Of a stretch of 64,000 nucleotides of DNA, positions 53,813 through 64,000 are shown piece after piece. The position numbers and the translations under genes were made by a program. Positions within the stretch are counted from its first letter, which is position 1, and every line of letters begins with the position of its first letter. Source of the stretch: Streptomyces tsukubensis (GTDB lineage Bacteria; Actinomycetota; Actinomycetes; Streptomycetales; Streptomycetaceae); NCBI RefSeq assembly GCF_003932715.1, contig NZ_CP020700.1, forward strand, positions 6,222,501 through 6,286,500, read 5' to 3'. Below the pieces are notes generated by a model, which was given only the letters and a program-made list of their open reading frames with translations, had not been told where the DNA came from and did not search any database.

Positions 53813-55534
53813 ATGAAGCCCCAGACGCCGACGATCCCCAGCGACGCGGCCCGCCTGACCGCCGCGGCCGACTTCGTCAGGGAGCACGACACCGCCGCCC
53901 TGCTGTCGCTGCTGCTCCCCGGCCTCGATGCCCTGGAGGCCCGGGCCCTGGAGGACCGCTGCCACTTCTCGCACGCCGCCCTGCTGGTCTTCCCTCCCGA
54001 CCCGGGCACCCTCCGTGCCGAACTGGCCGCCTGCGGACTGGCCGCGGACCCGGACGCCGAACCCGTACCGAGTGTGGTCGTACGGGACCGGCTCGCCGCA
54101 CGGCACCGGCGCGAGGCGGCCGGGCTGGACGTCCGCATCCTGCGCCCGTCGGTTCCCGGGCCGGGCGCCGAGCACCGTACGGTCGAAGTCTTCGCGCTGA
54201 CCGTGCCCCCCGGCTCCGGACTCGCCGCCGTCGCCGCCGACGAGCGCGCCCGAGAACACGAGGCCCATCTCGCCTTCGAGGTCGAACGCCCGGACCCGCT
54301 GGTACTGCGCGGCATGGGCGCGATCCTCACCCGCCACGGAGCCGTCCCCGACGGTGGCGGCTACAACCCGCACGAGGACGGCACGGTCTTCTACTTCACC
54401 GCACCCGACGATACGAAGACCGGATACCGCAGGGTCGAGCTGTACGCGCCCGGCGACCACCGCGAGGTACTGGCGGCCCATCTCGCCGCCCCCGGCGAGA
54501 CCCCGCCTGCCGAAACGCTCCTGCGCCTGCTGACCGGCGCCTGGAGCACCCAGGCCTTGGCGGGCTTCGCCGCACTCCGCATCCCCGACGCCATGACCAC
54601 GCACACGTCCCTCGCCGCCGGGCCCCTCGCCGCCCGGACCGGCACCGACCCCGGGAGCCTGGCCCGGCTCCTGCGCTATCTCGGGATGCTGGGCGTGGTG
54701 ACCGGCGACGAGGAGAACGGCTTCCGGCTCACCCCGGTCGGCGCCCTGCTCCGCGCCGACGCCCCGGGCTCCCTGCGGCCCCTCGCCCTGCTGTACGGCG
54801 GCCCGTTCTACGAGTCCTTCGCCGCCCTCGGCCACACCCTCCGCACCGGGAAGACCGCCTTCGACCACGTCTTCGGCGCCCACCACTTCGACCACTTCGC
54901 CCGCCACCCCGAACTCGCCGGGCTCTTCGACCGGTCGATGGCCGCCAGCACCCGGATGTTCGAACCCCTCGGCGGCCATCCCGTCATCACCGCGGCGAGC
55001 ACGGCGGACCGTCCCGGCACGGTCGTCGACATCGCGGGCGGCAACGGCGAACTGCTCGCCCGCCTCCTGACCGCGCACCCCCGCCTCCACGGCACCCTCC
55101 TCGAACGGTCCCACGCCGTCGAAGCCGCCCGCCGCACCCTGGCCGCCGCCGGGTGCGCCGACCGGTGCACCTTTCTGACCGGCGACTTCGCCGACGTACC
55201 CCCGGACGGCGACGTCTACGTCCTGTCCCGCGTGCTCCACGACTGGGACGACGAACGCTGCACCGAGATCCTCCGCCACTGCGCCCGTGCCATGCCCGCC
55301 GACGCGGACCTGCTGATCGTCGAACGCCTCCTCCCCGCTGACGTCTGCACCGGCGGATCCCCGTCTCTCGCCGTGGCGTGGGACCTCCACATGATGTGCA
55401 ACGTCGGCGGCAGGGAACGCACCGAGGCCCACTACGCCCGCCTGCTCGCCGCCGCGGACCTCACCCTGCTCTCCACCACCCCGCTCCCGCTGGAAGGCAA
55501 CGTCCTCCACGCACGCAGGACCGCCCGGCCCTGA
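53813..55534 (+). CDS. Methyltransferase with unfamiliar N-terminal domain
   Basis: 573 residues. The C-terminal 340 are an O-methyltransferase of the DnrK/TcmO type: helical dimerisation region (LLTGAWSTQALAGFAALRIPDAM), VVDIAGGNGELLARLL (motif I), TFLTGDFADVPP, and SRVLHDWDDERCTEIL with the catalytic-type His. The first about 230 residues (SHAALLVFPPDPGTLRAELAACG..., YNPHEDGTVFYFTAPDDTKTGYRRVELYAPGDH) form a separate alpha/beta domain I cannot place. Such a long N-terminal domain is not usual for the family (about 340 residues). Co-directional with the hydroxylase; convergent with the large SARP. Confidence 0.88.
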   Translation: MKPQTPTIPSDAARLTAAADFVREHDTAALLSLLLPGLDALEARALEDRCHFSHAALLVFPPDPGTLRAELAACGLAADPDAEPVPSVVVRDRLAARHRREAAGLDVRILRPSVPGPGAEHRTVEVFALTVPPGSGLAAVAADERAREHEAHLAFEVERPDPLVLRGMGAILTRHGAVPDGGGYNPHEDGTVFYFTAPDDTKTGYRRVELYAPGDHREVLAAHLAAPGETPPAETLLRLLTGAWSTQALAGFAALRIPDAMTTHTSLAAGPLAARTGTDPGSLARLLRYLGMLGVVTGDEENGFRLTPVGALLRADAPGSLRPLALLYGGPFYESFAALGHTLRTGKTAFDHVFGAHHFDHFARHPELAGLFDRSMAASTRMFEPLGGHPVITAASTADRPGTVVDIAGGNGELLARLLTAHPRLHGTLLERSHAVEAARRTLAAAGCADRCTFLTGDFADVPPDGDVYVLSRVLHDWDDERCTEILRHCARAMPADADLLIVERLLPADVCTGGSPSLAVAWDLHMMCNVGGRERTEAHYARLLAAADLTLLSTTPLPLEGNVLHARRTARP

Positions 55535-55547
55535 CCGTGCCTCGCCG

Positions 55548-57863
55548 TCAGCCCGCGTGATGGGCCAGCGGCCACGGGCCCTCGTCGTACGGGTGCGGCC
55601 TCCCCTTCGCGGCTCGCAGCGCGGCGCGCCGCAGCGGGAGGGGCACGGTCGTCCGGACCGCCGGATCGCCCGCGGCCTCGGCCTCCGCCGCGGCCAGGGC
55701 GTGCTCGGTCAGCCGGATCCACTCCGACCGGGGGAGCCGGTGGTGCAGCAGCTTCCGCAGCCCTCCGACCAGACGCCCGGCATAGGGGCGGGGCCCCTGC
55801 TCCGCCGCCTGGACGACGACGGCCGCGATGTCCTGCCACTCCGCGTCGAACCAGGCGTAGGCGTCGGCGGAACAGGTGAAGGTACGGGGGTTCGCGCCCG
55901 CGACCGCGGCCCCCGCGGGCTGCCGCGGCAGATACAGCCCGCACGCCTCGGTGGCGTTGACGATGCCGTGCAGATAGTGGTCGAGGAGGCGCCGGACGGC
56001 CGCCTTCCGCTCCGCCCGGCTGTCCTCGGCCGCCGCCCGCTGCCCGGCGTACTCGTGCACCAGATCGTCCCAGGTGAACCGGCCCGGCCAGGTCTCGCGC
56101 AGCAGATGCAACCGGACCACGGGCCGCAGGAGTTCCTCCAGCCGCCGCCGGTCGACGCCCGTCACCGCCGCCGCGGCGGCCACCGAGAACCCCTTCCCCG
56201 GCATCAGCCCGAGCAGCCGGAACGCCCGTCTCACATGCGCGGGCAGGGCCTCGTACGACAGGTCGAGAGCGGCCCGTACGGCAACGTTCCGGTCGCCCTC
56301 GACATAGAGCCGGGCCAGTCGGCCGCGATCGGCCAGGGCCCGCACGTACGCGCCGATGCTGTTCGGCTCCCGGTCACCGATCCACGAAGTGGCGACGCAG
56401 AGCGCGAGCGGGAGGAAGTCGCAGAGCGCGGCGAGCCGCGCCGCCGCCTGCGGTTCGGCGGCCACCCGCGCCGGGCCCGAAGCGGCCCTGATCAGGTCGA
56501 GAGCCTCCGCACTGTCCAGGACCCCGCAGGTCAGCCGGTGCGCGCTGTCGAGGGCGACCAGCCCGTCCAGCCGGTCCCGGCTCGTCACCAGGGTCAGGGA
56601 ACGGGATGTGCCGGGGAGCAGCGGACGCACCTGGGAAGGGTCGGCGACATCGTCGAGGACGATCAGGACCCGGCGGTCCGCGAGCAGAGTGCGGTACAGG
56701 GCGGTCTGGGCGTCGAGACCGGTGGGGATGTCCGGGGGCCGGCACCCGAGGCCCTGGAGCAGCATGGGAACCGCTTCCTCCGGGGCCATCGGGGGAGAGT
56801 CGTGGAAGCCCCGCATGTCGAGGTACAGCTGCCCGTCGGGGAAGTGCCGCGCCGCCAGATGCGACCAGTGGAGCGCGAGCGCCGTCTTTCCCACCCCGGC
56901 GGCCCCCACCAGCAGGACGACGGGCTCCGCCGCGGCGAGCGCCTCGTCCATGCGGCGCATCGAGTCCGCCCTGCCGACGAACCGGTGGGTCGCCGCCGGG
57001 AGCTGCCGGGGAATCACCCCGGCGGCCCCCGCCCCGGACTCGTGTTCCTGGTACCCCCGGAACTTTCCGGCCGGGGCCGCCCCGGTCCGGGCCCCGCCCG
57101 TCCCGCCCAGCAGCCGCCGGTGGAGTTCGCGGAGTTCGGCCGTGGGCTCGACACCGAGTTCGACGATCATGCGCTTCCGCAGCCCCGCGTACACCGCCAT
57201 GGCCTCCCCGGTCCGGCCCGCCTTGTGCAGTGCCGTCATGAACAGGGCGTGCGGACGTTCGCGCAGCGGATGCTCCGCCACCAGCCGGGCCAGCTCGGCG
57301 AGGGAGGACCGGTCCCGCCCCAGCATGTTCCCGGCCTCCGCGCGGCCCTCGACGGCCGTGATCCGGAGTTCGTCCAGGCGGAACTGCTCGGCGGGGGCCG
57401 ACAGATCGGGGTGCGGATCGCCCCGCCACAGGGTCAGCGCCCGTTCGAAGCTCTCAAAGGCCTCGTTCCAGCCGCCCGCGGCCGCGGCCCGGGTGCCGTT
57501 CTTGATGAGGGACTCGAAGGCGAGGAGGTCGAGCCCGTCGGGGCCCACCCGGATCACGTATCCGGGGCTCTGCGTCACCACCAGCCGCGCGCCGACCGGG
57601 CCCAGGGCCCTGCGGACCTCGGTGACGAGGGACCGGACCCGGGCCGCCCCCGATACCGGTGGGTGGTCTTCCCACAGGCGGCTCACGATGCGCTCGACGG
57701 ACACCACACGGTTGGCGCTGAGCAGCAGAACGGTGCACAGGGAACGCTGCCGTCCGGTGAGCGGAACGACGGACCCCTCGACCTCGACTTCCAGGGAACC
57801 CAGCAAACGGAAGTGAACTCGGGAGTTTTGCACCCTTCGACCGTAACTCAGGACTGAGGGCAT
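55548..57863 (-). CDS. AfsR-like SARP regulator with NB-ARC domain
   Basis: 771 residues from the ATG at 57863; TTG 57869 and GTG 57833 are alternatives. OmpR-type winged helix at about 15-100 (FRLLGSLEVEVEGSVVPLTGRQRSL...VSVERIVSRLWEDHPP), BTAD about 105-250, and an NB-ARC ATPase with P-loop VGAAGVGKTALALHW near 320, kinase-2 VLIVLDDVADPSQV and DFLPLALCVA. The TPR tail of full AfsR (about 990 residues) is mostly lacking. SARPs bind direct repeats near -35 boxes and activate antibiotic genes. Candidate activator for the hydroxylase/methyltransferase pair or the peptide cluster. Confidence 0.93.
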   Translation of the reverse strand: MPSVLSYGRRVQNSRVHFRLLGSLEVEVEGSVVPLTGRQRSLCTVLLLSANRVVSVERIVSRLWEDHPPVSGAARVRSLVTEVRRALGPVGARLVVTQSPGYVIRVGPDGLDLLAFESLIKNGTRAAAAGGWNEAFESFERALTLWRGDPHPDLSAPAEQFRLDELRITAVEGRAEAGNMLGRDRSSLAELARLVAEHPLRERPHALFMTALHKAGRTGEAMAVYAGLRKRMIVELGVEPTAELRELHRRLLGGTGGARTGAAPAGKFRGYQEHESGAGAAGVIPRQLPAATHRFVGRADSMRRMDEALAAAEPVVLLVGAAGVGKTALALHWSHLAARHFPDGQLYLDMRGFHDSPPMAPEEAVPMLLQGLGCRPPDIPTGLDAQTALYRTLLADRRVLIVLDDVADPSQVRPLLPGTSRSLTLVTSRDRLDGLVALDSAHRLTCGVLDSAEALDLIRAASGPARVAAEPQAAARLAALCDFLPLALCVATSWIGDREPNSIGAYVRALADRGRLARLYVEGDRNVAVRAALDLSYEALPAHVRRAFRLLGLMPGKGFSVAAAAAVTGVDRRRLEELLRPVVRLHLLRETWPGRFTWDDLVHEYAGQRAAAEDSRAERKAAVRRLLDHYLHGIVNATEACGLYLPRQPAGAAVAGANPRTFTCSADAYAWFDAEWQDIAAVVVQAAEQGPRPYAGRLVGGLRKLLHHRLPRSEWIRLTEHALAAAEAEAAGDPAVRTTVPLPLRRAALRAAKGRPHPYDEGPWPLAHHAG

Positions 57864-57986
57864 GATCAACGGCTCTACGGCTCTGACCTGCGGATTATGC
57901 CTGTGCCGGGCATCCTGCGGGGTCCTGCGGGCCGTCGCCCTATGGCCTTCGAAACGAGAACCGGAGGGCCGGGAAGGGTACTTGGT

Positions 57987-58859
57987 TCAGGCCGATTGCG
58001 GAGTCCGGTGGCTGCAGGCCCCGTCCGGGTCCCGGGTGAACGCGGCCGGGTGCCCGACCGCATGGGTGCCGAAGGAGCGGCGGCCCGGCCCCTCGGCCGC
58101 ATGGTCCAGCCGGGGATCGCGCCGCAGGATCCGGCCGTGCAGCTCCGCCAGGGAAGGGCCCGGCCCGTCGCCGAGGCGCGCCACCATCCGCGCACGGACG
58201 AGCTGGAAGTGGTCGAGGGCCTCCGCCTGGCGTCCGCTCCGGTACAGGGCGAGCATCAGCAGCCCCGCCACCCGTTCGTCCAGCGGATGGGAGAGCGCGA
58301 GCTGCTGCAGGGCGGGCAGATGCTCGGCATGGCGTCCGGCCCGCATGCCGAGTTCGGCCCGGCCGGTCAGCACGGCGCGGTGCTCGTGTCTGAGGGTGAC
58401 CCGGACCGACCGGGCCCACGACGAGTTCAGATCCGACAGGGGATCGCCGCGCCACAGGGACAGCGCCTCGTCGAAATGCCGCAGGGCCCGGTCCGGGTCA
58501 CCCGCCCGTTCGGCGTCCTTCGCCCGCAGCACGGACGTACGGAACCGGTGGAGGTCGACGGCTTCGTGCGCGACGGCCAGAAGATATCCGCCCCGCCGCC
58601 GCACCACGGCGATACCGTCGGCCGGCTCGGCTCCGCACCCCAGCGCCTTCCGCAGCCGGGTGGCGTGGACGTACAGCGTCTGCCGGGGGTGCTGGGGGGC
58701 CTCGTGATCCCACAGCCGCTCGGCCATGGTCTCGTCCGTGACGAAGTGGTTCGGACGCCAGGCCAGCGAGGCGAGGAAGTGGCGGGCGCTCTCCGGGAGA
58801 ACGATCCGGTCACCGGCGGGCGTATGCGCCTCGACGCAGCCAAGGAGCTGAATATTCAT
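57987..58859 (-). CDS. Small SARP-type regulator
   Basis: 290 residues from the ATG at 58859 (GTG three codons earlier possible). N-terminal winged helix (IQLLGCVEAHTPAGDRIVLPESARHFLASLAWRPNHFVTDETMAERLWDHEAPQHPRQTLYVHATRLRKAL) and a BTAD (about 100-250: VDLHRFRTSVLRAKDAER...LARLGDGPGPSLAELHGRI), the compact size of classical SARPs. It follows the S26 peptidase gene in the same direction, so it probably belongs to the peptide operon and acts on the GGAAA repeats at 62787-62863. Confidence 0.92.
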   Translation of the reverse strand: MNIQLLGCVEAHTPAGDRIVLPESARHFLASLAWRPNHFVTDETMAERLWDHEAPQHPRQTLYVHATRLRKALGCGAEPADGIAVVRRRGGYLLAVAHEAVDLHRFRTSVLRAKDAERAGDPDRALRHFDEALSLWRGDPLSDLNSSWARSVRVTLRHEHRAVLTGRAELGMRAGRHAEHLPALQQLALSHPLDERVAGLLMLALYRSGRQAEALDHFQLVRARMVARLGDGPGPSLAELHGRILRRDPRLDHAAEGPGRRSFGTHAVGHPAAFTRDPDGACSHRTPQSA

Positions 58860-59001
58860 GGGGGGCACCTGCTGTTCGTGATCTGTGCTGGTGCCCCCAA
58901 TGTGCAGTCCGGTGCGAACGGTCGGCGCATGGATCCCGCATGGCCGGGAAATAAACCCGCCGCGACGGTGTGATGGCCGGGTCCGGCCGTGGCTCCCCGG
59001 C

Positions 59002-59463
59002 TCAGATCCGTCGCCGTACGACCCCGAGCACCCGGTCCGCCGAGAACAGGCCGAGCTGCCGGGAGTCCACGCTGAACGGCGGATTGTCCCCCAGCAGATA
59101 CAGGCAGCCGGGCGGAATCCGCTCCGTCTCCCCGGAGTCCGTCACCCGGAGATCACCAGGACCGGCCTCCACCCGCTTGATGACCCACCGGTGCCCGTCC
59201 ACCGCGGCGCGCCCCGGCCCCGGGCGGGCCGAGGGAACCCCCCTGAGACGGTCCTCGCCACTGGGCTGCTCGACCACGACGACGCTCCCGCGCCGGGGCG
59301 TCGCGCCCCGCCGTACGATCACCCGGTCCCCGGGCCGGAAGGCCGGCTCCATACTCGGCCCCCGGACCGTGACCGCCACATACCGGCGGCGCAGCGACCA
59401 CAGCACCCAGCCTGCCGCGCCGGACGCGGCCGTCGCGGCGGCGATGACGGCTCCCCGGCTCAC
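59002..59463 (-). CDS. S26-family signal peptidase
   Basis: 153 residues from the GTG at 59463, overlapping the ABC exporter stop (GTGA). One membrane helix (VSRGAVIAAATAASGAAGWVLW). Catalytic Ser in VRGPSMEPAFRPGDRVIV and Lys in GHRWVIKRVEAGPGDL; GCLYLLGDNPPFSVDSRQ is the box E substrate region. It is short for type I signal peptidase but complete in motifs. Fused in the operon to an exporter that lacks its own peptidase domain, so removal of the leader of the six-cysteine peptide is the likely task. Confidence 0.9.
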   Translation of the reverse strand: MSRGAVIAAATAASGAAGWVLWSLRRRYVAVTVRGPSMEPAFRPGDRVIVRRGATPRRGSVVVVEQPSGEDRLRGVPSARPGPGRAAVDGHRWVIKRVEAGPGDLRVTDSGETERIPPGCLYLLGDNPPFSVDSRQLGLFSADRVLGVVRRRI

Positions 59464-61379
59464 AGCGCGGCTCCCGCCATCGGCGCCTCGTCCGATTCGC
59501 CCTGGTATCCGGAGGCCTGAAGGGTGAACAGGCGGGCGTACTCGCCCCCACCGGCCATCAGGGAGGCATGGTCCCCCTCCTCCGTGATCCGGCCCTCGGA
59601 CAGCACGACGATACGGTCGGCGTCCCGCACGGAACCCAGCCGGTGCGAGATGAGGACGCTGGTCCGGCGCGCCCGGAACTCCCGCAGCCCCGTGTGCAGG
59701 GCGTACTCGGCCTCCGCGTCGAGCCCGGACGCGGGCTCGTCGAGGATCAGCAGATCGCGCCCCTCCCGCAGCAGCGCCCGGGCCAGCGCCAGACGCTGGA
59801 ACTGGCCGCCGGACAGAAGCACCCCGGTCGTGTCGTTCTTGTCTTCGGCTTCGGACTCGGAATCTTCGGATGCGGCTTCGCCGCAGTCCTGGAAGAAGGT
59901 GCGCGTCACCATGGTCTCGTAGCCCCGGGGGAGCGCGGCGACCGTCTTGTGCACCCCCGCCCGCTCCGCGGCCCGGACCAGACGCGCGGGATCGTCCAGG
60001 GCCGTGAGGTCCCCGACCGCGATGTTCTCGCCTGCCGTCAGGTCGTAGTCCATATAGTCCTGGAAGACCGCGCTCATCCGCTGCCGCAGCTCCTCCGGCG
60101 CGACGTCCCGGATGTCCACACCGCCCCACAGGACGGCACCCCGGGTCGGGTCGTAGAACCGGCAGAGCAGCTTGACCAGGGTCGATTTGCCCGCACCGTT
60201 CAGGCCGACCAGGGCGAGACTCCGGCCCGCGGGGATCCTGAGGTCCACCCCGCGGAGAATCCACGGCTGGTCGTCCGCATATCGGAACCAGACGTCCCGG
60301 AGTTCGATGTCGCCCGCCGGTGAGGCGAGCGCCCGGGGCTGCTCGGCCCGGACCAGATCGGGCGGCATGGTCATCACGGCGTGATAGTGCCCGAACAGGG
60401 TCAGTGCCTGGTGCGCGCCCGCCGCATCGGCCGCCAACTGGGCGACGGCCGCCTGGACCCCCGTCACCGCGGCGATGAAGATGACCACGTCTCCCGTCGT
60501 CAAAGTGCCCTTCAGCGCGGCGTGTACGGCCCAGGCGAGGCCCGCGCCCGAGACCACGGCCGCCAGGAGCGCCAGCAGCGACTGGGTGCGCAGCTCACGC
60601 CGGTCCGTCGACCGCTGCTCCGCGTTCGCCGCCAGCCGCTCCTGCTGCATCCGGCCGAGGAGGAAGCCCCCGATCCCGAACAGCCGGACCTCCTTGGCCG
60701 CGTCCGCGCTGGACAGCAACTGGTCGTAGAAGATCTCGCGCCGCTCCCGCGGCCCGATCCGCCACAGCATGTCCGCCCGACGGCGCGACAGCATGATCTC
60801 CGCCGCCAGCACCGGCACCGCGGCGGCCAGCAGGAACACGCTCATGACCGGTGCCAGGACCAGCAAGGAGCCCAGGAAGCCGCCGATCGTGACGCCGGAA
60901 CGGAGCAGCCCCAGCGCCCCGTCGAGCACCTGGTTCGGCGAGGTCTTGCCGGACTGCTTCGCCAGCCGCAGCCGGTCCAGGAACACCGGATCCTCGAACC
61001 GCGACATACCGACCGACCTGCCCACGGACCGGAAGAGCCCGCCCTGCGCGACGACGGTGGTGGCCCGCTCCAGCTCGGCCCGGAGATACCCGGCGGCCTG
61101 CGGAACCACCGCCTGGGCGATACCGCAGAGGGCCAGCCCGGCGACGAGCCCGGTCAGCGTCCCGGCCGGTCCGCCCCGGGTCAGCGCGTCCAGGGTCAGC
61201 TTGGTCAGCCAGCCCAGGGCGACCGGCAGCACACCGGTCAGCAGACCCAGCGCCGCATAGGCGGCCACCTTCCCCGGGGCCGCGCTCCAGCTCAGCTTCA
61301 GAGCGGCGGGAAGATGCCGTCCGGGCCCGGGCGTCCGGCGGCGGGCCGGGGCGCCCGCCCGCGAGTTCTCCTGCGGCAT
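59460..61379 (-). CDS. ABC exporter (fused permease-ATPase)
   Basis: 639 residues. The N-terminal membrane domain has about six helices (VAAYAALGLLTGVLPVALGWL onward). ATPase: Walker A VGLNGAGKSTLVK, Q-loop AVFQDYMDYDL, signature LSGGQFQRLALARAL, Walker B LLILDEPASGLD, H-loop LISHRL. An acidic insertion EAASEDSESEAEDK precedes the signature. There is no C39 peptidase domain at the N-terminus. Half-transporter that should dimerise. Flanked by the thioredoxin-like and S26 peptidase genes; likely exporter of the Cys-rich peptide. Confidence 0.95.
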   Translation of the reverse strand: MPQENSRAGAPARRRTPGPGRHLPAALKLSWSAAPGKVAAYAALGLLTGVLPVALGWLTKLTLDALTRGGPAGTLTGLVAGLALCGIAQAVVPQAAGYLRAELERATTVVAQGGLFRSVGRSVGMSRFEDPVFLDRLRLAKQSGKTSPNQVLDGALGLLRSGVTIGGFLGSLLVLAPVMSVFLLAAAVPVLAAEIMLSRRRADMLWRIGPRERREIFYDQLLSSADAAKEVRLFGIGGFLLGRMQQERLAANAEQRSTDRRELRTQSLLALLAAVVSGAGLAWAVHAALKGTLTTGDVVIFIAAVTGVQAAVAQLAADAAGAHQALTLFGHYHAVMTMPPDLVRAEQPRALASPAGDIELRDVWFRYADDQPWILRGVDLRIPAGRSLALVGLNGAGKSTLVKLLCRFYDPTRGAVLWGGVDIRDVAPEELRQRMSAVFQDYMDYDLTAGENIAVGDLTALDDPARLVRAAERAGVHKTVAALPRGYETMVTRTFFQDCGEAASEDSESEAEDKNDTTGVLLSGGQFQRLALARALLREGRDLLILDEPASGLDAEAEYALHTGLREFRARRTSVLISHRLGSVRDADRIVVLSEGRITEEGDHASLMAGGGEYARLFTLQASGYQGESDEAPMAGAAL

Positions 61380-61385
61380 ACCGCG

Positions 61386-61961
61386 TCAGCCGCCGACGGC
61401 CACGGGCGCGAGGACTCCGCCTCCGGCCTCCATGAGCCGCCCGGAGTCCGCGGTGGCGACCGCGACGGTTCCCCCGCCGTCGACGACGATGTACGTGGGG
61501 AAGATGACCACGCCGAGTTCCTTCTTCAGCTCCGCCGCGGTCCCGCCCTCGGGGAAGACCCGGCTCAGCCCGTTCAGCTCCGACCGATAGAAATCGGTAC
61601 CCGACGCGTCCCCGCCGATGACGGAGAAGACCCGGCTCTCGTCCACACCCGTCTCCGCGAGGAACTCCTTCAGCACCGGCAGCTGTTCCTTGCAGCCGTC
61701 GCACTCGGCCGACTGGAAGGTCAGCACCCAGGGCGCCCCGTCGCCGAGCGGAAGCTCGACGGCCGTACCGTCGGCGTCTGTCAGCGCGGGCACCGCGGGA
61801 ACGACGGTACCGGGCAGCGGGGAGAACGGCGGCGGACCGCCCGCCACCCGCTCCGCGACCCAGGGGTCGAGAATCTTCTTCACCCGCAGCGCAACGGCCA
61901 GGGAAAGCGCGCATGCGACTGAGGCCACCAACAGGGCGACTGCGGAGAGCGCGATGCCCAT
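61386..61961 (-). CDS. Membrane-anchored thioredoxin-like protein (TlpA/MauD type)
   Basis: 191 residues. An N-terminal membrane helix (IALSAVALLVASVACALSLAVAL) is followed by an extracytoplasmic thioredoxin fold with WVLTFQSAECDGCKEQLPVLKEFL (active site Cys-Asp-Gly-Cys) and cis-Pro region VIFPTYIVVDGGG. Together with the MauE-like protein encoded just upstream it forms a MauD/MauE-type disulfide pair. Likely oxidises or isomerises cysteines of the exported six-Cys peptide. Confidence 0.92.
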   Translation of the reverse strand: MGIALSAVALLVASVACALSLAVALRVKKILDPWVAERVAGGPPPFSPLPGTVVPAVPALTDADGTAVELPLGDGAPWVLTFQSAECDGCKEQLPVLKEFLAETGVDESRVFSVIGGDASGTDFYRSELNGLSRVFPEGGTAAELKKELGVVIFPTYIVVDGGGTVAVATADSGRLMEAGGGVLAPVAVGG

Positions 61962-61977: not shown

Positions 61978-62496
61978 TCAGTTCTTCTGGGAGAAACGGA
62001 ACAGAGCGGCGAGTTCGCCGAGATGAAGCAGGGTCACACCGACGACGGCCGCGGGCGCCGCGACCAGCGCATAGTCGACCGGCCCCGGGCCTTCCGACGA
62101 GGCGGTCGCCCACCAGGCGCCGGCACAGATCACCAGCAGGACGGCGTTCCGTACGAGATGCGCCGCCGAGACCTCGCTGCCCGCACTGCCGACGCAGCCG
62201 CAGGAAACCCCCGGGCGCGAACGCAGAATCCGCCACAGGTACACGGTGAATGCGAGAAGCATCAGTCCTGCCGCGCCGAAACCGGCCCACACCGGATGGC
62301 GCAGGAACAGCGCGAGCGCGATGCCGACCTCCAGTACGGGTATCGCCAGTGCCACCGCAAAGGCGGAGCGCCCGAAAGCGGGCACGGTCAGTACGATGTG
62401 CCGTTGGAATGTGCGGAGATCGCGGAATTTCAGTACGGCTGACCATACGAATACCGCCGCCAGACAGATCTGGCCGAATGCGCCTATCGCTTGCAT
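61978..62496 (-). CDS. MauE/DoxX-like redox membrane protein
   Basis: 172 residues, four predicted helices. It starts QAIGAFGQICLAAVFVWSAVLKFRD, a DoxX/MauE hallmark, and has RPGVSCGCVGSAGSEVSAAHLVRNAVLL with a Cys-Gly-Cys. MauE is needed for disulfide formation in methylamine dehydrogenase and is a VKOR/DsbB-like partner of MauD. No methylamine dehydrogenase genes are present. Placement next to a Cys-rich peptide suggests disulfide formation in that peptide. Confidence 0.92.
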   Translation of the reverse strand: MQAIGAFGQICLAAVFVWSAVLKFRDLRTFQRHIVLTVPAFGRSAFAVALAIPVLEVGIALALFLRHPVWAGFGAAGLMLLAFTVYLWRILRSRPGVSCGCVGSAGSEVSAAHLVRNAVLLVICAGAWWATASSEGPGPVDYALVAAPAAVVGVTLLHLGELAALFRFSQKN

Positions 62497-62528: not shown

Positions 62529-62567
62529 GGGCGGCCACCGTGACCCGGCGGATCACGGTGGCCGCCC
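62529..62567 (-). terminator. Hairpin between precursor and MauE-like gene
   Basis: 15-bp perfect arms (62529-62543, 62553-62567), 9-nt loop. Likely a leaky terminator giving more precursor than processing-gene transcript, as is common after bacteriocin precursors. Confidence 0.75.
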
Positions 62568-62574
62568 CGGTCAA

Positions 62575-62742
62575 TCAGCTACAGCGGATCTTGCAGTCCT
62601 CGTACTGGCAGCAGTGCCGGACGTAGCCCTGGCTGCCGGACCCGGCGGTGTCCTTCCAGCAGGACTTGGGGCAGCGGGCAGCGGCCTCCGCGTAGGTCTG
62701 GGGGAGAAGCTTGTCCGCGAGCATGCGCAGCGTCTTCGACAT
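62575..62742 (-). CDS. Six-cysteine peptide precursor (candidate bacteriocin/RiPP)
   Basis: 55 residues from the ATG at 62742; AGGAAAGAGAG lies just upstream. The leader, about 20 residues, is amphipathic (SKTLRMLADKLLPQTYAEA) and not a Sec signal. AEA and AAA at 18-22 are possible cleavage sites. The core contains Cys24, 28, 44, 45, 50 and 54: C-x3-C, 15 residues with a GSGSQG turn, CC, x4, C-x3-C. Two C-x3-C helices flanking a loop suggest a disulfide-locked helical hairpin. Operon partners are MauE-like, thioredoxin-like, ABC exporter, S26 peptidase and SARP. Named family not recognised. Confidence 0.85.
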   Translation of the reverse strand: MSKTLRMLADKLLPQTYAEAAARCPKSCWKDTAGSGSQGYVRHCCQYEDCKIRCS

Positions 62743-62786
62743 ATCGCTCTCTCTTTCCTGAGGGGGTGGCTCGGTCTGCCGCCCCG

Positions 62787-62863
62787 TTTCCTCCGTCAGT
62801 ATTTCCCGGCGTTCTTTCCAAGGGATTTCCATGAACTTTCCCGGAGCTTTCCATGAACTTTCC
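62787..62863 (-). promoter_or_regulatory. SARP-type operator with GGAAA every 11 bp
   Basis: On the minus strand GGAAA occurs at plus positions 62859-62863, 62848-62852, 62837-62841, 62826-62830 and 62815-62819, exactly 11 bp apart, then at 62802-62806 and 62787-62791. Within it an 18-bp direct repeat CGGGAAAGTTCATGGAAA lies 22 bp apart (62826-62843, 62848-62865). SARPs bind direct repeats at 11 or 22 bp. Located 45-120 nt before the precursor start. Confidence 0.75.
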
Positions 62864-63036
62864 CGCTCCGTTTTCAGAAGGCCGCGGCAAGGATCGGAGG
62901 CCGTACGGAGCCCGGTCCGGCTCACTTTGCGTACGTTCGAGTGGTCTACGGGAAGCCGTAGCCCTGAGAGCTGACGGCACGGCACCCGCGTCGTTACCTT
63001 GACCGCCGTATCGGATATCGACCTGAGCGGTGGCGC

Positions 63037-63666
63037 ATGCGAAGTATCTGGATGGCCGTCGGCGCGGCACTCACGCTCGTCGTCGGCGGACTCGTCTGGG
63101 CCGTCATGACGCATGCGGGCCCGGCCGCCGAAGGTGCCGCCGCCGACGGCGTGAACAGCGAAATCAGGACCGACGCCCTGCTGGAGTCCGGTCTGCTGCA
63201 CTTCCGGCACCGGGACCTCCCCCAGGCGAAGGCCGCTTTCGAACACGTCCTGGCCCTGGACCCGGAGAACAAACTCGCCTGGTACAACCTGGGCGTCCTG
63301 GCCCAGGACCAGGGACGCAGATCGGACGCCCACCGGGCCTACGACGCGGCCCTCAAGGCCGACTCCGCATACCCCTCCGCACTCTTCAACAAGGCCCTGC
63401 TGCTCAAGGCGAGCGACCCCGACAAGGCGCTCGGACTTCTGCGGCGGGCCGTCGCCGCCGACCCGAAGGCCTCCACCGCCCACTTCCACATCGGCGAGAT
63501 CCTGGCCCGCAAGGGCCGGGAGGACGAGGCACGGAACGCCTATCACCGGGCCGTCGGGCTCGACCCCGCCCTGCGCTCCCAGGTCCCGGCGGCCTTCCGC
63601 CCCGCATCCGGTGAGAGCGCCGAAGCCGCCGTGAACTCCGACACCGAGGCAGGTAGCCCCAGATGA
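63037..63666 (+). CDS. Membrane-anchored TPR protein
   Basis: 209 residues from the ATG at 63037 (ATG 63052 possible). An N-terminal membrane helix (WMAVGAALTLVVGGLVWAVM) is followed by three to four TPR units (DALLESGLLHFRHRDLPQAKAAFEHVLALDPENKLAWYNLGVLAQDQGR..., STAHFHIGEILARKGREDEARNAYHRAVGLDP). TPRs bind peptides or proteins. The stop overlaps the start of the GT2 glycosyltransferase gene (ATGA), so the two are coupled. Divergent from the Cys-rich precursor with a 294-nt gap. Confidence 0.88.
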   Translation: MRSIWMAVGAALTLVVGGLVWAVMTHAGPAAEGAAADGVNSEIRTDALLESGLLHFRHRDLPQAKAAFEHVLALDPENKLAWYNLGVLAQDQGRRSDAHRAYDAALKADSAYPSALFNKALLLKASDPDKALGLLRRAVAADPKASTAHFHIGEILARKGREDEARNAYHRAVGLDPALRSQVPAAFRPASGESAEAAVNSDTEAGSPR

Positions 63667-64000
63667 CGCCGACCGCGACCCCCAGATTCTCCGTCTTCAC
63701 CCCCAGCCACCGGCCCCGGTTCCTGGACGAGTGCCTGGAGACCCTCCAGGCGCAGTCCTGCGGGGACTGGGAGTGGATCGTCCTCCTCAACAACGGCGCC
63801 AGGTGGCGGCCCGAACAGCCCGACGAGCGGGTCCGCGTGGAGATCGCCGACGAGCTCCGGGGCGTCGGCGCGGCCAAGCGCCGGGCCTGCGAACTCGCCC
63901 GCGGCGAGATCCTCGTGGAACTCGACCACGACGACCTGCTGGCCCGCGACTGCCTGGCCGAACTGGCCCGGGCGTTCGACGAGAACCCGGACGCGGTCTT
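63663..64000 (+). CDS. GT2-family glycosyltransferase, N-terminal part
   Basis: The gene runs off the window; 112 residues are visible. GT-A nucleotide-sugar fold: FSVFTPSHRPRFLDECLETLQAQ, WEWIVLLNNGA, GVGAAKRRACELARGEILVELDHDDLL. The DHDD carries the metal-binding DxD-type motif. Acceptor unknown. Coupled to the TPR protein and divergent from the six-Cys peptide. In glycocin systems a GT2 enzyme with TPR-like regions glycosylates the peptide, so that role is a possibility, but a cell-wall or polysaccharide role is equally open. Confidence 0.88.
   Translation, partial: MTPTATPRFSVFTPSHRPRFLDECLETLQAQSCGDWEWIVLLNNGARWRPEQPDERVRVEIADELRGVGAAKRRACELARGEILVELDHDDLLARDCLAELARAFDENPDAV

Follow-up and report, generated by a model that had tools for sequence, protein, structure and literature searches.

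Sublancin-type glycocins (SunA/SunT/BdbA/BdbB/SunS) produce a small peptide with disulfides, served by its own ABC exporter and its own pair of thiol-oxidoreductases. The genes mauE and mauD are known from the maturation of methylamine dehydrogenase, and proteins of the MauE family have five transmembrane (TM) segments. SodX, the maturation protease of Ni-SOD, acts on a cytosolic protein, whose short leader is not of the Sec type. In Streptomyces, decRiPPter (PMC7794033, 2020) predicted three candidate RiPP families containing mauE, one of them also mauD, with Cys-rich precursors of at least 8 Cys; the filter required a transporter, a peptidase and a regulator, and a role of mauE in precursor modification was suggested. 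Among the matches listed from the open-licence literature, only this work ties MauE to candidate RiPPs.

We analysed 64,000 nucleotides of Streptomyces tsukubensis (NZ_CP020700.1, positions 6,222,501 to 6,286,500; hereafter the window), in which a precursor gene and genes for a MauE protein, a thioredoxin-like protein (Trx), an ABC exporter, an S26 peptidase, a SARP and a larger SARP/NB-ARC protein are tightly spaced on the same minus strand (Table 1). This is a real system, and it belongs to a broad actinobacterial class that has hardly been described. A preliminary description of the same DNA had given the Cys spacing of the peptide as C-x3-C-x15-CC-x4-C-x3-C, which is exact (Cys 24, 28, 44, 45, 50 and 54), and the MauE, Trx, ABC, S26 and SARP genes that it placed downstream on the same strand are present. 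The interval to which it assigned the system, 62575..64000, holds the precursor at 62575-62742, but the remainder (62743-64000) is occupied by divergent plus-strand genes for a TPR protein (63037) and a GT2 enzyme (63663), for which we found no link to the peptide system. The larger SARP/NB-ARC gene is also found near the closest relatives (L019, L021, L022, L031). Beyond it, at window 53813-55531, lies an O-methyltransferase gene whose product is extended at the N-terminus by about 230 aa that have no Pfam match.

The start of the GT2 gene is 0.9 kb from that of the precursor, and a glycocin-like peptide glycosylated by this neighbour had been considered. However, the gene lies on the opposite strand behind the TPR gene and beside apparent dTDP-sugar genes, and among 103 loci selected for S26, MauE and ABC (3 repeats, 100 distinct) a GT2 homologue was called in one, the window's own, and in none of the other 102. 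The glycosylation idea thus fails, and we find such a peptide hardly credible. Two observations belong to the same neighbourhood. In the stretch L003:6663-11459 a GT2 gene, the second half of which resembles a methyltransferase, is followed by genes that we take to be for dTDP-rhamnose synthesis, and this stretch looks like a separate sugar locus; and 4.9 kb past the right end of the window (L003:11876-13411) there is an ORF that resembles collagen in its long runs of G-x-x (GTQGTQGANGAQG).

Table 1. Features of the peptide locus, in window coordinates
Feature	Position	Strand	Basis
Precursor gene, 55 aa	62575..62742 (stop included)	-	ORF and relatives
Leader (1-22) and predicted core (23-55, containing the 6 Cys)	within precursor		
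A20-A21-A22, predicted S26 cleavage site (after A22)	62677..62685	-	A20/A22 invariance; A-x-A in relatives
Five-heptamer SARP-box-like array	62814..62864		repeat pattern
Hairpin (stem of 18 bp) in the gap before the MauE gene	62529..62567	-	
MauE-family protein, five hydrophobic segments, C99-x-C101 (62194-62202)	61978..62496	-	PF07291
Trx, membrane-anchored, CDGC residues 87-90 (61692-61703)	61386..61961	-	weak Thioredoxin_8/AhpC-TSA; family HMM
ABC exporter, permease and ATPase	59460..61379	-	PF00005
S26-family peptidase; start overlaps ABC stop	59002..59463	-	PF10502, TIGR02227
SARP-family activator (BTAD)	57987..58868	-	PF03704
Larger SARP with NB-ARC domain, start uncertain	55548..57869	-	PF03704, PF00931

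The MauE protein is a member of its family by the PF07291 score (85.5 bits versus a cut-off of 27), and its CxC is present in 104 of 104 aligned rows (window counted twice). The label TlpA/MauD-like, given earlier to the next protein, needs correction: the protein is thioredoxin-like, with general thioredoxin models matching, all below their cut-offs, but no MauD model matches at E up to 1. The S26 protein scores 60.4 bits with PF10502 (cut-off 22.9) and 53.9 with the signal peptidase I model TIGR02227 (cut-off 47); it has the GxSM and Lys (IKRV) motifs, and the Ser and Lys motifs are kept in 23/23. Its second-best NCBIfam match is the SodX model TIGR02754, at 41.3 bits under the cut-off of 63.25, and the tree was not decisive (support 0.595) for placing it with either SodX or signal peptidase I (SPase I). 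No C39 model is found among the Pfam matches of the ABC protein. With an S26 gene present and an ABC protein free of a C39 match, the earlier claim that S26 replaces C39 is borne out; together with a precursor leader that ends in A-x-A this sets the system apart from class II bacteriocins of the C39 double-Gly type.

In a single-sequence search of 5.8 billion proteins the window peptide matched only itself. The first search of same-genus genomes gave matches in 14 of 392, seven of them weak. None of these seven (L011-L017) returned with a better profile, A2, and they were rejected; wide stretches for two of them (L025, L026) contain no labelled system gene. MauE, Trx and ABC genes adjoin the precursor in the stronger matches. 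Profile A2, which carries no machinery information, found 25 places in 23/392 same-genus genomes, and 24 of the 25 fall within a MauE + ABC + S26 locus, a count in which the system ABC of L031 is cut by the locus edge with no Trx found and two G382 places share one set. The 25th (L039) has no machinery and was judged spurious. According to the preliminary description, homologues standing without the MauE, ABC and S26 genes would speak against a dedicated system, and the single such place that we met is this apparently spurious one. In a phylum-wide sample profile A2 matched 2/396 genomes, both of the same genus.

A profile of seven precursors led to 26 database proteins from Streptomyces, Embleya and Yinghuangia, hypothetical where named, and a wider precursor profile adds Kitasatospora. 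Two close subfamilies were seen, one with 6 Cys and LPQTxAAAGC, the other with 8 Cys and LPKAxAEAGC; in those of its loci that were seen, the latter also has a second Trx gene, which lies upstream. The six Cys columns of the window peptide are retained in relatives. Pooled omega values (leaders 0.26, cores 0.34, cores without Cys 0.50; 110 non-independent pairs) indicate that the precursor genes are under purifying selection, and we rejected arms-race positive selection since pooled omega is below 1. Because the six Cys columns are kept in relatives and the genes are, in pooled pairs, under this selection, the observation is beyond chance.

A PDB sequence search with E up to 10 returned no solved relative of the precursor, none of 19 precursors (alignment A3) matches NCBIfam at E up to 0.01, and Pfam has nothing for the window precursor and nothing over cut-off for six others. 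Several features of the relatives' loci may be mentioned in their own right. In the 8-Cys subfamily (L023, L024, L028, L029) the second Trx has CGPT, not CxxC, in 4/4 loci. L021 has, besides the precursor of its complete set and about 10 kb away from it, a second stretch that resembles a precursor but is interrupted by an in-frame stop (L021:3306-3470); it lies beside a SARP gene, looks like a decayed copy and was excluded from all alignments; from the precursor set we also dropped the L040 ORF at 3196 (too far) and the L086 ORF (no machinery). Another candidate peptide system lies between S26 and SARP in L019:1952-4436, L021:7821-10329 and L022:12188-14696 and near the precursor in L031 and L032, with a ThiF-type enzyme (PF00899; weak PaaA-like N-terminal match) and a weak M50-like membrane protein; L019, L021, L022 and L031 have with it a 46-47 aa peptide ending like IEIRLLDKIETIxxK. 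This system was not seen in the window's cluster.

These comparisons show that the locus does not stand alone: its leader and four processing genes are shared by a large class in soil actinobacteria. Already among the profile-A2 matches the leader is constant and the cores change. A MauE profile matches 137 of 392 genomes of the same taxonomic class (E up to 1e-12), with exactly one match in the window genome and several copies per genome in some genera. Twenty wide loci were hand-picked from high-scoring MauE matches (not the top 20 in order), and 17 of them have MauE, Trx, ABC and S26; a precursor was found by the leader pattern in 13 of these 17 and is possible by eye in L075, L079 and L085, while none was found in L087. 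MauE alone was rejected as a marker, given that L086, L090 and L094 have it without the full set and the first family-wide sample gave 3/21. In L094 (9336-10043) two Cys-rich peptides are encoded in tandem near MauE, Trx and ABC genes, with no S26 match; their leader is unrelated, and they are perhaps a sister class.

The same class was approached from the exporter by a scan of a species-genome collection, in which the best 80 of 411 ABC relatives were kept. S26 is present in 73 of these 80 loci, MauE in 68, Trx in 78 and all three in 63. A leader-only HMM was applied to 17,094 reads, a number that includes nested starts and corresponds to 5,850 distinct stops. It picked out 67 precursors, which lie in 64 of the loci (best 80 of 411); 53 of these 64 have S26, MauE and Trx, and the other 16 loci gave no precursor. 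The 67 precursors are spread over 18 genera or groups, among them Streptomyces, Microbispora, Actinomadura, Nocardiopsis, Nonomuraea, Catellatospora, Micromonospora, Thermobifida, Nocardia, Lentzea and Pseudonocardia. A regular-expression figure of 69/80 loci was set aside, as it includes plain non-precursors (L100 at 2545, L107 at 178, L122). Sets are incomplete in the MauE relatives L086, L090 and L094 and in the ABC relatives L122, L124 and L172. When called genes of at least 60 aa were clustered across the 103 loci, the families were ABC (102 loci), Trx (97), S26 (83), MauE (77), SARP-type (56) and the precursors; beyond them no family exceeded 13/103 loci, and no recurrent immunity-like or modifying enzyme family was seen, with the reservation that such clustering would miss small or lineage-specific genes.

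The leader of the class reads approximately xDRLLxxxVPxxxAxA. A20 and A22 are invariant in 19/19 rows of alignment A3. An A-x-A lies 0-6 residues ahead of the first Cys in 47/47 database relatives, which were gathered by profiles that favour A-x-A and Cys, and anywhere before the first Cys in 63/67 of the leader-HMM precursors (from the best 80 of 411 ABC relatives; the strict motif is missing in 4/67), the HMM being blind to the core but trained on precursors having A-x-A. For locus ORFs outside the leader-HMM set, A-x-A and at least 3-4 Cys were themselves selection rules. The motif fits a signal-peptidase-type site compatible with an S26 enzyme, and this putative cleavage site is well supported by comparison. 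Given A20-A21-A22 in the window precursor, the predicted product is therefore residues 23-55, with a computed monoisotopic mass of 3747.57 Da when three disulfides are formed. Sec export was considered and set aside: the window leader has no hydrophobic core (best 12-aa mean hydrophobicity 0.20; relatives: median 0.62, maximum 2.2), although a few relatives' leaders are more hydrophobic. A helical-hairpin fold finds no support in the AlphaFold2 model of the precursor, which has strands at low confidence (mean pLDDT 66.9, pTM 0.37).

The number of Cys in these peptides is almost always even. All 67 leader-HMM precursors (66 distinct; best 80 of 411 ABC relatives) have an even number, with 4 Cys in 4, 6 in 19, 8 in 25, 10 in 17 and 12 in 2, and 50/51 of the combined set at <45% core identity do so. 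The remaining small ORFs in these loci that have 4 Cys or more served as the control; of them 617/985 are even (63%) when one read per stop is taken (1555/2323 in a looser count with nested or alternative starts); the tail is 1.4e-9, a statistic whose true strength is reduced by relatedness among precursors. The odd exceptions, both with 7 Cys, are P0029 (identical to the L033 protein) and P0016. Gain and loss of Cys in pairs matches the prediction of complete pairing, which we regard as well supported on these counts. An exported metal-binding peptide, metallothionein- or metallophore-like, with MauE and Trx managing the redox state of its Cys, would likewise be small and Cys-rich with an adjoining exporter; this is very unlikely, considering that the Cys count shifts almost only by twos while the spacing varies widely, and that no further gene family is found in more than 13/103 loci. 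The comparison of loci upholds the earlier picture of a disulfide-rich, leader-bearing, ABC-associated peptide with its own MauE/Trx pair.

It is more difficult to decide on which side of the membrane the peptide is processed. The normal place of action of S26 signal peptidases and of TlpA-like proteins is outside, and the preliminary description can be read as placing oxidation and cutting after export. On that account the ABC protein would export a reduced precursor, S26 would cut it and MauE and Trx would oxidise it outside, like the DsbB/Trx proteins of sublancin-type systems. The usual habits of these families, the S26 score over the signal peptidase I cut-off and the A-x-A, a classical signal peptidase site present in 47/47 database relatives, all agree with it. 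The charge patterns do not. In 104 aligned MauE rows the median net charge of loops 1 and 3 is +4 and that of loops 2 and 4 zero; loop 3 carries the CxC and is positive in 98%. The flank after the TM segment is the more positive one in 91/97 Trx proteins, with none reversed, and in 70/91 S26 proteins, with 13/91 opposite. Controls show the usual bias: the positive flank precedes the TM segment in 6/6 housekeeping SPase I proteins (a small set, these being the distinct sequences with the motif that 33 control loci yielded), a rougher SPase I control including at least 2 wrong frames gave 6/8 usual and 0 reversed, and TlpA/ResA-like lipoproteins gave 9/10. By the positive-inside rule alone, we infer that MauE, Trx and S26 all have their catalytic parts on the cytoplasmic side, opposite to housekeeping signal peptidases. 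These charges make the export-first order doubtful; processing outside is possible, with somewhat poor prospects, and we lean towards oxidation and cutting at the cytoplasmic face before export. Such an order has precedents: SodX is an S26 enzyme whose substrate leader is cytosolic, and inverted VKOR/DsbB proteins form disulfides inside.

SARPs bind heptamers 11 bp apart. Upstream of the precursor, 72-122 bp before its ATG, five heptamers (TGGAAAG/GGGAAAG read towards the precursor) stand at an exact 11-bp spacing, and a four-heptamer pattern, derived from the sequence itself, has 0 matches in 100 window shuffles. GAAAG repeats of the same period are found upstream of the precursors in L019, L021, L022 and L030. 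At least three GAAAG repeats of this period occur before 15/103 precursors, and therefore the array is not class-wide. The hairpin behind the precursor gene is possibly an attenuator or an RNA stabiliser. Stems of at least 14 bp follow 26/102 precursors versus 2/2040 shuffles, and therefore the precursor may be expressed above the machinery in part of the class.

Taken together, we consider it likely that the product of the locus is a secreted peptide with all its Cys in disulfides and that the class is defined by a shared leader, a variable core with an even number of Cys and four dedicated proteins, a gene set well supported by comparison. In the proposed course the SARP would switch on the operon, the leader would guide the precursor to a complex in the membrane, the disulfides would be formed by MauE (CxC) and Trx (CxxC), S26 would cleave after A22, and the ABC protein would export the peptide. 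Predicted from genes alone, its role is most likely that of an antimicrobial or other competitive peptide. The absence of a recurrent immunity-like family in 103 loci is unusual for a bacteriocin. This, the SARP-type family in 56/103 loci and the purifying selection would suit a developmental or signalling peptide that is not antimicrobial; such a role seems rather unlikely, however, in view of the patchy distribution (23/392 same-genus genomes, 22 without the spurious one), the multiple MauE copies that genomes of some genera carry and the variable cores. A tentative but not implausible further reading is a large combinatorial class of disulfide-stapled mini-proteins in actinobacteria, with a single leader, a single membrane set of four proteins, even-Cys cores of great variety and, in some genera, more than one set in a genome; they would be oxidised and cut on the cytoplasmic face by inverted MauE, Trx and S26 and exported finished, with a layout like that of a conotoxin library and with targets that may need no self-immunity.

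Stable disulfide peptides are sought-after scaffolds. If 18 genera or groups share one leader and one machinery, the class would offer a wealth of natural cores as well as a kit of four genes for disulfide formation and leader removal. If the redox and protease domains do face the cytoplasm, the class would be a natural route to multi-disulfide peptides inside the cell before export, which bears on the site of action of MauE-type proteins.

The class is not wholly new, because decRiPPter (PMC7794033, 2020) already had MauE-containing candidate clusters. Like the present class, those are Streptomyces clusters with mauE and Cys-rich precursors, and our 8-Cys subfamily (L023, L024, L028, L029), compared by description only, may be one of the decRiPPter families. 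Those families are predictions, and the accessible part of that paper is silent on a leader and a cleavage site as well as on Cys parity, S26 and topology. Kinship with sublancin-type glycocins is unsupported: the present class has no conserved glycosyltransferase, C39 domain or double-Gly leader, and MauE replaces DsbB, although an ABC exporter and a thiol-oxidoreductase pair are found in both. With SodX the window peptidase shares the S26 fold, but SodX proteins, examined by eye, have no TM segment before the motif. Unlike in methylamine dehydrogenase maturation, a peptide of some 50-100 residues is the substrate, Trx has no MauD match and no other mau gene was seen beside it; what both have in common is a MauE protein acting with a membrane-anchored thioredoxin for a Cys-rich partner.
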